Shown in pieces: positions 36,505 through 57,615 of a DNA stretch of 64,000 nucleotides. Position numbers and translations under genes: made by a program. A model generated the notes under the pieces. That model did not search any database and had not been told where the DNA came from. It saw only the letters and a program-made list of their open reading frames with translations. This DNA comes from Alphaproteobacteria bacterium (lineage in GTDB: Bacteria > Pseudomonadota > Alphaproteobacteria > Rhodospirillales > Casp-alpha2): the NCBI GenBank assembly GCA_014382345.1, contig JACNJX010000047.1, forward strand, positions 1 to 64,000. The letters are read 5' to 3'. Within the stretch, counting starts at the first letter, position 1. The number at the start of each line of letters is the position of its first letter.

Positions 36505-37530
<1,026 letters not shown>

Positions 37531-37569: not shown

Positions 37570-38460
37570 ATGGATTGGGACAAGCTCCGCGTTTTTCACG
37601 CCGTCGCCGAGGCCGGCAGCTTCACCCATGCCGGTGTAACCCTGAACCTGAGCCAGTCCGCCGTCAGCCGCCAGATTTCGGCTTTGGAAGACAGTCTGGT
37701 GGTTAAGTTGTTCCACCGCCATGCCCGTGGCCTCAAGCTAACCGAGCAGGGCGAGGACCTGTTCCAGACCACGCACCACGTCTACGGCAAGCTGGCCATG
37801 GCCGAGGCCCGCATCATGGACAGCAAGGAACGCCCCCAGGGCGCGCTGAAGATCACCACGACGGTTGCCTTCGGGTCGATCTGGCTGACGCCCCAGATCA
37901 AGGAATTTATCGCGCTCTACCCGGATGTGGAGGTCTCGTTGGCGCTGGCCGATACGGAACTGGACCTGTCCATGCGCGAGGCCGACGCCGCCATCCGCAT
38001 GATGCCGCCGTCCCAGCCGGACCTGATCCAGCGCCACTTGATGACCATGAATTACCGCGTCTATGCGGCGCCCGAATACCTCAAGGAACGGGGCCTTCCG
38101 AAAACGCCGGCGGACCTAGACGACCACCGCATCATTGTTTACGGCGAGGATGCGACGCCGCCGGTCGGCAATTCCAACTGGCTGCTGGAGGAAGGTGCGT
38201 CGCCGGACCACAGGCGCCATCCGGTATTGCGGGTCAACAGCATCTACGGCATCTATCGGGCGGTGCAAAGCGGCCTCGGGATCGCCGCGCTGCCGGAATA
38301 TATGAGCCGCGAAGGCCGCAACCTGATGGAGATTTTGCCGGAAGTCCGTGGCCCCAGCCTGGACTTGTATTTCGTCTATCCGGAAGAGCTTCGCAACAAC
38401 AAGCGAATTGGAGTTTTGCGCGATTTCCTGGTGCGCAAAATGACAGGCGGAGTCGCCTGA
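37570..38460 (+). CDS. LysR family regulator, LsrB/VtlR type
   Basis: 296 residues from ATG 37570, with GGGAG six bases upstream. N-terminal winged helix ~1-60 (DWDKLRVFHAVAEAGSFTHA, SQSAVSRQISALEDSLVVKL, FHRHARGLKLTEQG) and a C-terminal inducer-binding domain (residues ~90-290). The opening and the FHRHARGL segment match my recollection of LsrB of Sinorhizobium and VtlR of Brucella/Agrobacterium, redox- and sRNA-related regulators encoded beside trxB. Here too it follows trxB by 39 bases. Downstream are its own terminator and a candidate small RNA gene. Confidence 0.9.
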   Translation: MDWDKLRVFHAVAEAGSFTHAGVTLNLSQSAVSRQISALEDSLVVKLFHRHARGLKLTEQGEDLFQTTHHVYGKLAMAEARIMDSKERPQGALKITTTVAFGSIWLTPQIKEFIALYPDVEVSLALADTELDLSMREADAAIRMMPPSQPDLIQRHLMTMNYRVYAAPEYLKERGLPKTPADLDDHRIIVYGEDATPPVGNSNWLLEEGASPDHRRHPVLRVNSIYGIYRAVQSGLGIAALPEYMSREGRNLMEILPEVRGPSLDLYFVYPEELRNNKRIGVLRDFLVRKMTGGVA

Positions 38461-38472
38461 TCCTGTATTTAA

Positions 38473-38504
38473 CCGGCTTCGGTATCGCCTGAAGCGGATT
38501 TTTT
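38473..38504 (+). terminator. Rho-independent terminator of the LysR gene
   Basis: CCGGCTTC pairs with GAAGCGG (one bulged G) around GGTATCGCCT, followed by ATTTTTTAT. It lies 13 bases after the LysR stop and separates that transcript from the RNA unit downstream. Confidence 0.8.
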
Positions 38505-38528
38505 ATAATAAAATCAAATCATTAACGC

Positions 38529-38547
38529 CCATGCGTAAAACGCATGG
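38529..38547. promoter_or_regulatory. LysR-type T-N11-A palindrome
   Basis: CCATGCGT-AAA-ACGCATGG, perfect eight-base arms, contains the LysR-family pattern T-N11-A (38532 and 38544). It lies between the LysR terminator and the candidate RNA gene. If the RNA starts near 38603, the site centres near -65, the usual recognition position for LysR regulators. Confidence 0.5.
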
Positions 38548-38599
38548 CTGGGCTGCTATTTTGTGGGTGGTTTGCATATGGTGGTATACCTATATTCGT

Positions 38600-38775
38600 T
38601 CCAAGCGATGTTGCAGCGCAACATTGCGACGAAATTTCCGGATAACAATCCGGAATACTCTGGACCCCCCCGTTCAGAGTCAGGGACCGTCCACCCCCCC
38701 GGACGGCCCCTACGTCTCCCAGACGTGAAGCCTCCCTGTTTAAACTCGCCCCGGCTTTTAGCCGGGGCTTTTTTT
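38600..38775 (+). ncRNA. Candidate small regulatory RNA with C-rich hairpin loops
   Basis: No protein frame fits here, but the plus strand folds into a string of stems: GTTGC-AGC-GCAAC (38610-38622), TTCCGGAT-AACA-ATCCGGAA (38636-38655), ACTCTG/CAGAGT with a loop of seven C (38657-38680), CCGTCC/GGACGG with loop ACCCCCCC plus GGG/CCC below (38683-38709), ACGTCT-CCC-AGACGT (38712-38726), then unpaired GCCTCCCTG, and a strong terminator (38748-38775). C-rich loops resemble anti-Shine-Dalgarno sites of alphaproteobacterial sRNAs such as AbcR or cuckoo RNAs. The 5' end is a guess based on a possible -10 TATATT at 38591-38596. Confidence 0.55.
38748..38775 (+). terminator. Rho-independent terminator of the candidate small RNA
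   Basis: GCCCCGGC (38748-38755) pairs perfectly with GCCGGGGC (38761-38768) around TTTTA and is followed by TTTTTTT. There is no T-run on the minus strand, so it serves a plus-strand transcript, although the LysR gene upstream already has its own terminator. Confidence 0.92.
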
Positions 38776-38790
38776 GCAATGCCGCCCGGC

Positions 38791-40833
38791 TTAGTTGCGC
38801 GCCAGGAACTTGCTGCGCTGGGCGACCACGGTATCGGCGTCCTTGCCGGACAATTCCTGCAGGTGGTCGAATTCCCAGTCGAAAAAGCCGACCCCCAGCG
38901 TCATCGAGCGCAGTTCGATAATCAGGTCGTGCATTTCCGATTGTGGCAACTGCACGGTGACCTCATCCCAGCCTGCCCAGCCCGGCTTGGCGTCGAAACC
39001 GAGAATTTGGCCGCGCCGGCCGCTGACCAGCCGCTGCACCTTGGACGTGAAATCGTTGGGCAAGGTGATGTGGACCTGGAAGATCGGTTCCAGCAGCACG
39101 GGTTTGCAGTTGGGCATGCCTTCGCGCATGGCCTGGGCGGCGGCTTTCTTGAACGCCATTTCGGAGCTGTCGACGGCGTGGAACTGGCCGTCGGTAAGGG
39201 TTACGGCAACATCGACCACGGGAAAGCCCAGTGGTCCGCGGACCATGAACTCCTGAACTCCGGTTCTCACCGCCGGAATATACTGTTTGGGCACGACGCC
39301 GCCGGTGATGACGTCGTCGAACTGGAACCCGGAGCCACGCGGCAGGGGCTTGATATCCAGGTGCACGTCGCCGAATTCGCCGTGCCCGCCGGACTGTTTC
39401 TTGTGCCGGGCGTGCTGGGAGACCGGCTGGCGAATGGTTTCCTTGTAGGGCACCTGCGGGCGTTCGGCGGTGACGGCGAGGCCGTACTTTTCCTTCAGCC
39501 GGTCGATAGTGACCAGCAGGTGCACCTCACCCTGGCCCCACAGCAAAAATTCACCGGTGTCCTGATCATGGCCGTAGGAAAGGGACGTGTCTTCGTCGGC
39601 CAGTTTGGCCAGCGCGCCGGATAGTTTGACCTCGTCCTCGCGGTGTTCGGCGTGAATGGAGAGCGCGAACAGCGGCTTGCGGGCATCCGGCCAATCGGCA
39701 TCGGCGCCCTTACCGTTACCGGAATCGGTCAATACATCGCCGGTGGTGACGCCGTCCATGCGGCCAAAGGCGGCGATATCGCCCTGTCCGGCCTTGCTCA
39801 TCTTTTCGTGCTTTTGGCCGATGACGCGGTGCAGGCCGCTGACTCTTTCACCGTTCAGCGTCATGCCATCGCTCACCTCGCCCCTGAGGACACGGGCGAA
39901 GCTCAACTTGCCGGCATGCCCGGCGTGGACGGTTTTGAAGACCTGCGCCAGAACGCCACCGCCCGCCTGATCGACGCCTAAGCGTTCAGCAGTGGTGTCG
40001 GCCCCCGGAGATTCATGGCGCAACGCCTTGAGCAACCGGCGGATGCCGTTGTCCTGCTCGGCGGAGCCGAAAAACACCGGGACGATATAACTGTTCTGCA
40101 GGTCTTTGGTCAGGCTGGAGTAAATTTCCTCGGACGTCGGAACGATGTCCTCCAAGAGCTCTTCCAGCAGGGTGTCGTCGAAATCGGCCAGGCTTTCCAG
40201 CAATTCGGCACGGGCTTCTTCTTCCCGACCCTGGACAGCGCCCGGAATTTCAATAAGTTCCGACGGCTGGCCGGGAGTCCATTGGAAGGCCCGTTCACTG
40301 ACCAGGTCGACATGGCCGATAATTTTTTCGCCCTCGCGGATCGGAATCTCGCGCAACAGCATCGGCCGTTTGGAATGCTGTTGCAAAGCTTCGAGAATTT
40401 CCTTCACGCTGGATATGGCGGTGTCCATTTTGTTGATGAACAGAATATGGGGAATGTCGTTTTCGTCGAGAAATTTCAAAATGGGGGCGACCGTGAGCAC
40501 ACGGGCTGCATCGGGTTCGCACACCACGATGGCGGTATCGGCAACCATCAGGGCGTTCAGGGTGTCTTGGATCAGCTCGATGGAACCGGGACAATCCAGG
40601 AAGGTCCATGCCTCGCCGATATATTCGCTCGACGCGATGTTGACCTCGGTGCTCATCTGGCGTTTTTTCGCTTCCGGCGTGGCGTCGCCTACGGCATAGC
40701 CGTCCTTGGACGTGCCTTTACGGCCAACCGCGCCGGTTTGCATCAGTATGCTTTCGAAAAGAGCTGTTTTGCCGCAAAGATAAGGGCCGACGATGGCGGC
40801 GGCGCGTGGTCCGGATGGTGTCTTGGTGGCCAT
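38791..40833 (-). CDS. Elongation factor G-like GTPase (non-canonical EF-G paralogue)
   Basis: 680 residues from ATG 40833, which has GGAGG five bases upstream. All EF-G domains seem present: P-loop GPYLCGKTALFESIL, NKMD for guanine specificity (ILFINKMDTA ~125-130), domain II (VLRGEVSDGMTLNGERVSGL), and domains III-V (LDIKPLPRGSGFQF ~510, ending LRSMTLGVGFFDWEFDHLQE). The switch I region lacks the usual RGITI and the G3 motif reads DCPGS instead of DTPGH, so the catalytic His is missing. It probably has a specialised role on the ribosome or elsewhere rather than routine translocation. Stands alone. Confidence 0.88.
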   Translation of the reverse strand: MATKTPSGPRAAAIVGPYLCGKTALFESILMQTGAVGRKGTSKDGYAVGDATPEAKKRQMSTEVNIASSEYIGEAWTFLDCPGSIELIQDTLNALMVADTAIVVCEPDAARVLTVAPILKFLDENDIPHILFINKMDTAISSVKEILEALQQHSKRPMLLREIPIREGEKIIGHVDLVSERAFQWTPGQPSELIEIPGAVQGREEEARAELLESLADFDDTLLEELLEDIVPTSEEIYSSLTKDLQNSYIVPVFFGSAEQDNGIRRLLKALRHESPGADTTAERLGVDQAGGGVLAQVFKTVHAGHAGKLSFARVLRGEVSDGMTLNGERVSGLHRVIGQKHEKMSKAGQGDIAAFGRMDGVTTGDVLTDSGNGKGADADWPDARKPLFALSIHAEHREDEVKLSGALAKLADEDTSLSYGHDQDTGEFLLWGQGEVHLLVTIDRLKEKYGLAVTAERPQVPYKETIRQPVSQHARHKKQSGGHGEFGDVHLDIKPLPRGSGFQFDDVITGGVVPKQYIPAVRTGVQEFMVRGPLGFPVVDVAVTLTDGQFHAVDSSEMAFKKAAAQAMREGMPNCKPVLLEPIFQVHITLPNDFTSKVQRLVSGRRGQILGFDAKPGWAGWDEVTVQLPQSEMHDLIIELRSMTLGVGFFDWEFDHLQELSGKDADTVVAQRSKFLARN

Positions 40834-41153
40834 GGAACCCTCCCAGAGAGAACGGTTATTCATTCTGGCGTGCGGGTATTCCCGCTTCATTTGTTATGGG
40901 AAAAGGGTAAAGCCCTAGGCGCGGGATGCAAAGAAAAAAGGGAAGATGTGCGTAAGCAAACTTTTCTGTCGGCAAGCGATCAGGTCTTTTTATCTGCAGA
41001 ATAAGTAGGGTTTTTTCCGTAAAAGGAGTGGTATCGGGTCGAGGGTTTGATCTATGCTCGTTTATTCCTGAACGGCACCTGACTTTATTTTTAAGAAAAT
41101 CAGGCTCCCGGTGAATGTTTTTGGGAAGAACATTCATCTGAAGGAGGGGGAAC
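40834..41153. other. Promoter region of the cupredoxin-cyclase operon
   Basis: 320 bases without a gene between the divergent EF-G-like gene and the cupredoxin operon. Holds two inverted repeats near the operon: CCTGA/TCAGG arms (41078-41104) and the perfect TGAATGTT/AACATTCA pair at 41112-41136. The ribosome-binding site of the operon is an extended AAGGAGGGGG just after the second repeat. No clear -10/-35 was identified. Confidence 0.5.
41112..41136 (+). promoter_or_regulatory. Inverted repeat before the cupredoxin operon
   Basis: TGAATGTT (41112-41119) and AACATTCA (41129-41136) are perfect eight-base arms around nine bases. It ends five bases before the ribosome-binding site, so it may be an operator or a leader hairpin affecting translation. 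Confidence 0.45.
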
Positions 41154-55422: not shown

Positions 55423-57615
55423 TCAGAGAAAGCTGTAGGGGTCTATATCGACCTGCACGCGGGTCTTTTTGGGCACCTTTGCGCGCGCCAGCCAGTCCCG
55501 GATCAGCGCCTGGATGTTGACGTCGCGGGCTGTCTTTAACAACAATCGCCTGCGGTGTTTGCCGCGCAGAAGCGCCATCGGCGCCGGCGCCGGGCCAAGC
55601 ACCATTACGGTATCGCCCACCGGCCGGGTGTAGCCCAGGCGGGTGGCGGCGGCATCGACGGCGCTTTCGTCCGTTCCCGACACGATCAACGCGGCCAAAC
55701 GCCCGAATGGCGGCATGGCGGCCATGCGCCGCCCGTCCGCTTCGGCGGTGAGGAATTGGTCCCGCCCCCCGGCTTTCAAAGCCTGCATGACGGGATGGTC
55801 CGGCATGTAGGTCTGTAGCAGCACCCGCCCTGGACGTTCGCCTCGCCCGGCCCGTCCCGCCACTTGATACAGCAGTTGATGGGTGCGTTCCGCCGCGCGC
55901 AGGTCGCCGCCGGTCAGCCCTAAATCCGCATCGACAGCGCCGACCAGGGTCAGCAGCGGAAAATGATACCCCTTGGCGACGATCTGGGTGCCGATGATCA
56001 GGTCCACGTCATGGTCCTCGATACGCCGCACCAGCGACGCCGCCGCGTCCGGCCCGGTGATGGTGTCGCTGGCGGCGACGACGGTACGGATATCGGGAAA
56101 CAGGCTTTCCACCTCTTCCGCCAGACGTTCGACGCCGGGGCCGCAGGCGGCAAAGGTGTCTTCGTTTTCGCATTCGGGGCATTGTTGGGGTTGGGACGCA
56201 TGATAGCCGCAGTGATGACATTGCAGTCTGCCGCCGCGCCGGTGTTCGACCAGCCACGCGGTGCAGCGCGGGCATTGCAACCGGTGCCCGCAAGTGCGGC
56301 ACAGTGTCAGCGGCGCATAGCCCCGCCGGTTGAGGAACAGCATGGCCTGTTCCCCGTCGGCGAAAGTTTTTTTGAGGGCGTCCTGCAGGGTGGGCGATAT
56401 CCAGCACTGAGACGGTGTTTTTTCCGCCCGCATGTCGATGGTGTCGACGTCCGGCAGCGCCGCATCGCCGTGGCGGTCGTGCAGATGGAGACTTTTGTAA
56501 CGCCCGCTCTCCACGTTGAGCACGGTTTCCAGCGCCGGTGTCGCCGAGGCCAGGATGATCGGGATTTCGCCCAACTGCGCGCGCACCACGGCCATGTCGC
56601 GGGCGTTGTAGATGACGCCGTCTTCCTGCTTGAACGAAGCGTCGTGTTCTTCGTCGGCGACGATAAGCTTCAAATTGGGGAACGGCAGGAACAGCGCCGA
56701 GCGCGCGCCGACCACCACACGGGTGCGGCCTTCGGCGACGGCGCGCCAGGTATCGCGGCGCTTGGCCGGGGTCAGGTCGGAATGCCATTCCACCGGTGCG
56801 CCGCCGAAGCGTTTCCAGAACCGCGCCAGCCACTGGGCGCTAAGGGCAATTTCCGGCAGAAGCACCAGTACCTGTCCATCTTGTTTAAGGGCTTCGGCGA
56901 CGGCTTGGAAATAGACTTCCGTTTTTCCGGACCCCGGCACGCCGTCCAGCAGGGTCACCGAAAATCCGCCTGTCTCCGTGGCTTTCTCAAGGCTGACGGC
57001 GGCCTTGCTCTGGTCCTCGGACAGCTCCGGCCCCGGCGTCGACCAGTCGGGCTCCGGTCCGGAGCCTGAAACATCGGGAGCCATGGTTACGGGCATGAGC
57101 ACGCCGGCCTCCGTTAGACTCTTGACGACGCCGGGGCTGGTGCCGGCTTCGCGCGCCAGTTCCGCCGCCGGCCGGGGCGGGCCTTCCTGGAGCACCTTGA
57201 GCACCCGTTCGCGGGCTTTGGTTTTTTTGAAATCGGCGGGGTCCGGGTGGGGCGCATAGGCCGTCACCGGTTTCGGCGGGGTGAGGGCGTCGGGTACGCT
57301 CATCGCCATTTTCAGCACCGCGCCCGGCGCACTCACGGTATAGCGCGCAACCCAGTCGACGAACCGGCGCATGATTTCGGGAAGGGGTGGCGCGTCGAGT
57401 CGTCCGATCACGTCTTTCAGTCTGGCGTCCGGGACATCGCCCAAGGCCTCTCCCCAGACGACGCCGATGGTGCGGCGCGGGCCGAAAGGCACGGCGACGA
57501 AATCGCCGTCGTTAAGGTCCATGCTTGCGGGCACCCGATAGTCATACGTGCCTCCAAGCGGCAGCGGCAGCATCACGGCTGTGGTTCGGGGCTTTGTTTC
57601 GGCGGGTGGCGTCAT
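55423..57615 (-). CDS. priA: Primosomal replication-restart helicase PriA
   Basis: 730 residues. N-terminal DNA-binding domain ([14 protein letters not shown]), winged helix, then SF2 helicase with Walker [22 protein letters not shown] ([14 protein letters not shown]), and two zinc-binding cysteine clusters ([34 protein letters not shown]) followed by [16 protein letters not shown] and [20 protein letters not shown]. PriA reloads DnaB at stalled forks. The VPGSGKT loop has Pro for the usual Thr. Divergent from the DUF484-xerC pair. Confidence 0.96.

Follow-up and report, generated by a model that had tools for sequence, protein, structure and literature searches.

In the Rhizobiales, VtlR/LsrB and the small RNAs (sRNAs) under its control are known to regulate virulence and symbiosis. 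AbcR1 and AbcR2 (ar15, RF02345; Rhizobiaceae and Brucellaceae) are encoded in tandem, in the order trxB-vtlR-sRNA. AbcR represses transporter mRNAs by means of the M1 motif CUCCCA, which is located in a hairpin loop, and a second single-stranded C/U-rich site (PMC5461406, PMC8844928); this second site, M2 GUUCCC (aSD2 UUCCCCUC), lies between the first two hairpins. The LsrB/VtlR box of abcR1 reads GCAT-N3-TG-N3-T, is located at -61 to -49 (PMC8844928, PMC7486931), and has been proposed to be perhaps unique to this regulator among the Rhizobiales (PMC7486931). NfeR1 (ar14), which is also activated by LsrB, has the box TGCA-N6-GCAT at -72 to about -57 (PMC10746234), and both abcR1 and nfeR1 have CTATAT as their -10 element (PMC8844928 for abcR1). 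In NfeR1/cuckoo RNAs several anti-Shine-Dalgarno sites are displayed by hairpins, and CCUCCUCCC is present in the loops of at least two of them. SorX (RF02784, Rhodobacter), finally, arises by cleavage of an ompR-like mRNA in its 3' UTR.

A sequence-only reading of the window (the whole 64-kb stretch of DNA that was analysed) had proposed that the stretch 38505-38775 encodes an anti-Shine-Dalgarno sRNA, perhaps of AbcR type, beside a VtlR/LsrB-type regulator and trxB. The stretch is flanked by the LysR gene and a convergent EF-G-like gene (38791-40890, - strand). The results described below agree with the core of this proposal. With a probability of about 0.8 we consider the region to be a gene for a trans-acting sRNA of ~173 nt, which would have its own promoter, be activated by the adjacent LysR protein, and act on Shine-Dalgarno sequences in the manner of AbcR. 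The elements of the locus are the following.

36565-37530, + strand: trxB, thioredoxin reductase (NCBIfam TIGR01292 above cut-off)
37570-38460, + strand: LysR-type regulator, proposed activator of the sRNA
38476-38504, + strand: terminator-like site after lysR (38476-38495 plus a T-run), weak, not conserved in the genus
38532-38554, + strand: VtlR/LsrB box TGCG-N6-GCAT-N3-TG-N3-T, spanning -71 to -49 relative to the predicted start
38590-38595, + strand: -10 element CTATAT, start predicted at 38602-38603
38603-38775, + strand: proposed sRNA, ~173 nt (fold z -9.28; covariation within the genus)
38605-38627, + strand: hairpin 1 (GCGATGTTGC/GCAACATTGC); in the genus 94% of cells paired, with two-sided changes
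38636-38655, + strand: hairpin 2; two-sided changes at 3 pairs in the genus
38657-38680, + strand: hairpin 3, C-rich loop (six C in the fold)
38682-38711, + strand: hairpin 4, loop ACCCCCCC
38712-38726, + strand: hairpin 5, ACGUCU-CCC-AGACGU, loop CCC
38731-38740, + strand: CCUCCCUGUU, predicted single-stranded anti-Shine-Dalgarno site, conserved class-wide
38748-38775, + strand: intrinsic terminator of the sRNA, strong (hairpin 38748-38768, then T7)

The LysR protein aligned with LsrB of A. tumefaciens (9HH1; PMC11975290) at 307 bits, while the next solved LysR protein scored 113 bits, and at the search threshold it is the single protein of this type encoded in the genome. Judged by sequence and by its synteny with trxB, the gene is therefore the LsrB/VtlR orthologue. 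The trxB gene was found upstream of lysR in 30/30 loci of the order and in 70 of the 80 named loci, and it is likewise the upstream neighbour of lsrB/vtlR in the Rhizobiales. The regulators differ in one respect. Rhizobiales LsrB/VtlR has the conserved redox cysteines C144 and C273, whereas the regulator of the window contains no cysteine at all; the corresponding residues are A141 and V269, and A and V occupy these positions in all 17 aligned class-wide homologues. Since the cysteines are absent while the synteny and the box are kept, the signal that this VtlR would sense must, as far as the alignment tells, be other than the thiol switch proposed for LsrB.

The region 38596-38780 is predicted to fold with -84.7 kcal/mol, against a mean of -48.7 kcal/mol for dinucleotide shuffles (z = -9.28), and none of the 200 shuffles folded as well. 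Five hairpins precede the terminator, in agreement with the at least five stems that had been described, and the second strong plus-strand terminator was found as well. The terminator that had been assigned to lysR itself is less clear: a terminator-like site is present, but it is the weak, non-conserved one listed above. Hairpin 5 carries at its loop the motif CUCCCA (38716-38721), which is identical to M1 of AbcR and whose CCC is predicted to be fully unpaired. As had been supposed, CCTCCC (38731-38736) is mostly unpaired, with probabilities of 0.76-0.94 (0.49 for the first base). In addition, the base of hairpin 4 contains AGGGA (38682-38686), which can pair with UCCCU (38733-38737) of the anti-Shine-Dalgarno linker; the GGGA/UCCC bases of this pairing are invariant across the genus, and it is possible that the pairing constitutes a self-masking switch of the RNA. 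The region had also been described as lacking a protein frame. Open frames do cross it (a GTG frame at 38563-39624 on the + strand, and one of 85 aa on the - strand), but close relatives differ by indels whose lengths are not divisible by three and which break the frame, and this speaks against protein coding. Together with the covariation described below, these indels indicate that the region encodes an RNA and not a protein.

Compensatory changes were found in the stems of relatives. Within the genus the 5' hairpins covary (15/50 pairs). In the class alignment two-sided changes were observed at 11 of the 14 pairs (56 cells, compared with 16 in shuffles), and the covariation score was 0.420 versus at most 0.141 when slid, although part of this class-wide signal comes from the terminator, as terminators covary in any gene. 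The stem of hairpin 5 changes on both sides (UUCAUGCC/GGCAUGAA, UAUGUCAUC/GAUGACAUA and UGGCGUC/GACGCCA). Across orders the ACGUCU-CCC-AGACGU hairpin and the GAAG-CCUCCCUGUU behind it hardly vary. The class has a near-invariant core of 30 nt, and the 3' part with CUCCCA hairpin, single-stranded site and terminator is nearly invariant. The three C-rich loops that had been pointed out are all present, but only CUCCCA is class-wide. The C7 run (38665-38671) in the loop of hairpin 3 is shared with a single relative, G006, while the hairpin itself is kept in the genus, and hairpin 4 displays its ACCCCCCC loop only within the genus and in G020. Hairpin 3 appears broken if the pairs are counted as they fall in the window, and RNAalifold pairs it in another register. 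Thus, the most striking C loops are the least conserved parts of the RNA.

In a nucleotide search 51 of 61 relatives yielded the RNA or its 3' part. It occupies the same place behind lysR, the region in which a comparison of relatives had been suggested; in many of them the EF-G gene follows. We also collected the regions downstream of lysR, at least 300 bases each, from 214 genomes or named contigs, and 148 of these contain the module according to a pattern that is permissive, a few of the 148 being chance matches. A covariance model, R1, was built from the last 72 positions of 28 sequences. It scores 74.7 bits (E 6e-15) on the unit of the window, whose sequence is part of the seed. R1 matched 193 of 387 alphaproteobacterial genomes and 129 of 264 genera, numbers that are lower bounds because of the strict filters used; with these filters many of the 387 genomes contained no detectable copy. 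Of the 80 named lysR loci, 59 gave an R1 match, in every case downstream and on the same strand. Carriers include Azospirillum brasilense, Thalassospira, Pelagibius, Kiloniella, Magnetovibrio, Niveispirillum, Belnapia, Elioraea and Reyranella. The RNA is located 2-6 kb away from lysR in some genomes, and tandem copies were found in others (G040, G052, and the Thalassospira loci L217 and L219).

Several other loci are worth recording. Genome G041 has no LysR match at threshold, yet contains two RNA copies ~1.1 kb apart (L029 and L194; G041:C34), the second of which has trxB and the EF-G gene beside it; the RNA may here have outlived its regulator. Some lysR loci that lack the module (L277, L283) have downstream hairpins with GGTCCTCCCCC-type loops, which look like a different C-rich RNA in the position of the missing one. 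A weak second R1 match in the window (57158-57228, + strand; 14.5 bits, E 0.24) is probably due to chance. Three more loci of the genome have a 3' end composed of CCUCCC or CUUCCC plus a terminator: L196 (G000:C65:49833), L197 (G000:C55:14466) and L198 (G000:C50:15554). The loops of the first are C-rich, and it has relatives in the genus; no VtlR box was found near any of the three.

The sequence at 38532-38554, TGCGTAAAACGCATGGCTGGGCT, is an exact match to the VtlR consensus. The window contains no other match (0.08 expected), and the genome has five in all. CTATAT begins 48 bases past the first base of GCAT in the 38542-38554 part of the box, and with a predicted start at 38603 the box and the -10 element all fall at the published positions, with the spacing of LsrB-activated sRNA promoters in Sinorhizobium. 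A sigma-70 scan found no promoter for the RNA, the -35 region being poor, as is expected of an activator-dependent promoter. Of 151 loci, 107 have the half-sites TGCR-N6-GCAT upstream of the module (2.8 in shuffles), 106 have the palindrome ATGC-N7-GCAT there (1.1 in shuffles) and 58 the full consensus (3.7 in shuffles); since these loci are related by descent, the figures represent conservation and not independent events. An AT-rich -10 sequence is often located at the right distance from the box in loci with the module, and the spacing is conserved in relatives. Box, regulator and anti-Shine-Dalgarno RNA occur together in Magnetovibrio relatives, Azospirillum, Thalassospira, Acetobacteraceae, Reyranella and others. 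The link with VtlR that had been suggested is therefore strengthened by an exact box at the right distance, conserved together with the RNA across the class. A second strong VtlR box of the genome, TGCAATTATTGCATGGCTGCAAT (L413:1501-1523; G000:C14:10864-10886), has CATATA at the -10 distance and lies in the gap that separates a c-type cytochrome-like gene from its neighbour; downstream of it we recognised no anti-Shine-Dalgarno RNA.

At curated cut-offs, Rfam models detected only tRNA in the window, and no Rfam family recognised the RNA in the loci scanned. At permissive thresholds SorX, suhB and anti-hemB appeared below cut-off, mostly through the common 3' end. For SorX, the penultimate hairpin, CCUCCCUGUU and terminator align with the RNA over the full model (36.7 bits, E 2e-7), but the score stays below the curated cut-off of 46.6, which was reached in 0/61 relatives. 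The suhB/MmgR (RF00519), anti-hemB (RF02837) and Betaproteobacteria toxic sRNA (RF02278) families likewise have a CCUCCC-type site before the terminator; their matches are weak (~24-25 bits, far below cut-offs), and they belong to other lineages or contexts. NfeR1 resembles the unit in displaying several anti-Shine-Dalgarno sites on hairpins and in having a like box that is equally placed, and its activation by LsrB parallels what we propose here. The likeness to cuckoo RNAs nevertheless failed, as the window contains neither CCUCCUCCC nor CCTCCTCCC and no ar14 match was obtained. On these model scores and motif tests, and on those for ar15 below, membership of AbcR/ar15, cuckoo/ar14 and SorX was rejected. 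A literature search on the module sequence returned unrelated papers only; the RNA may have been described before in a subscription journal or a supplement.

The comparison with AbcR is the closest one, and it bears on whether the unit is a true ar15 homologue, too divergent for the Rfam model to recognise but a family member all the same, or just an analogue. The two share gene order, VtlR box and CTATAT at the same positions (the start of the unit being predicted), M1 placed at the loop of a hairpin, another C/U-rich site that is single-stranded, and tandem copies in some lineages. However, the ar15 model gave no match to the RNA up to E 10, and none in searches of 193 and 385 class genomes, although both genome searches, made without a positive control, do not show absence. 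The second site also differs: it is CCUCCCUGUU and not GUUCCC or UUCCCCUC, and it is located between hairpin 5 and the terminator, directly before the latter with no further hairpin in between. Moreover, the unit has extra 5' hairpins, its regulator lacks the redox cysteines, and it belongs to other orders of the class. We regard true homology as a serious but somewhat doubtful possibility. Of the AbcR assignment made from the sequence, then, the context, the box and M1 are retained and family membership is not; on present evidence the RNA would act as AbcR does, and its genomic and regulatory context is the same.

The similarity to SorX, itself derived from a 3' UTR, together with the poor conservation of the lysR terminator, would fit an RNA that is processed from the 3' end of the trxB-lysR mRNA and lacks a promoter of its own. 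This is improbable given that a VtlR box and a -10 element are conserved class-wide, at fixed spacing, between lysR and the RNA, and that tandem second copies (for instance those of G049, G052, G089 and G184) can have their own box. The accumulation of several C-rich loops in one RNA could also point to a sponge for an RNA-binding protein (Hfq, a cold-shock type or similar) acting otherwise than by pairing with mRNAs. We consider this quite improbable, because conservation is lowest in the longest C loops, whereas the conserved sites share their sequence with anti-Shine-Dalgarno motifs that are known to act by pairing. Strong terminators are common elements, and one is present here, but the notion that it is accompanied merely by chance hairpins has almost no probability left in view of the fold z-score, the covariation and the near-invariant core.

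According to the preferred reading of an own-promoter sRNA, the LysR protein would bind the palindromic box and recruit RNA polymerase, as deduced from promoters of S. meliloti and A. tumefaciens. The two C/U-rich sites near the 3' end, CUCCCA in the loop of hairpin 5 and the single-stranded CCUCCCUGUU before the terminator, would both pair with Shine-Dalgarno sequences and so block translation of the target mRNAs, among which solute-binding proteins of transport systems would be prominent candidates. Putative targets were searched as sequence patterns before start codons, an approach with small numbers and imperfect controls. The pattern CAGGGAGG-N3-12-ATG occurs at 16 sites in the genome, versus one for the reversed pattern, and three of the eight plausible genes behind CAGGGAGG encode solute-binding proteins (TAXI/NMT1_3, phosphonate-type and TctC). 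Downstream of ACAGGGAGG, 6 of 22 ORFs of this and related genomes are solute-binding proteins by Pfam, whereas by inspection there were none among 12 after AAAGGAGG. By inspection they numbered 3/15 after CCAGGGAG, which has one base less complementarity and is a poor near-control since it keeps seven complementary bases (CAGGGAG). Many of the pattern sites are chance matches, and any Shine-Dalgarno sequence is partly complementary to the RNA. The counts are in line with an AbcR-like role, without proving it; we infer that the RNA is transcribed from the predicted start in a LysR-dependent manner and that it probably blocks ribosome-binding sites of transporter mRNAs.

There is, in our estimation, slightly less than an even chance that the pair of VtlR box and anti-Shine-Dalgarno sRNA beside trxB is an ancestral alphaproteobacterial circuit, run by a cysteine-free VtlR and one near-invariant RNA module, of which AbcR1/2, NfeR1 and perhaps SorX would be lineage-specific descendants or replacements. 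If the blocking of transporter mRNAs holds true, the circuit known from Brucella, Agrobacterium and Sinorhizobium would be far older and more widespread than thought. The origin of the AbcR circuit would become testable, the covariance model allows the RNA to be annotated, and the question is raised of what signal a cysteine-free VtlR senses.
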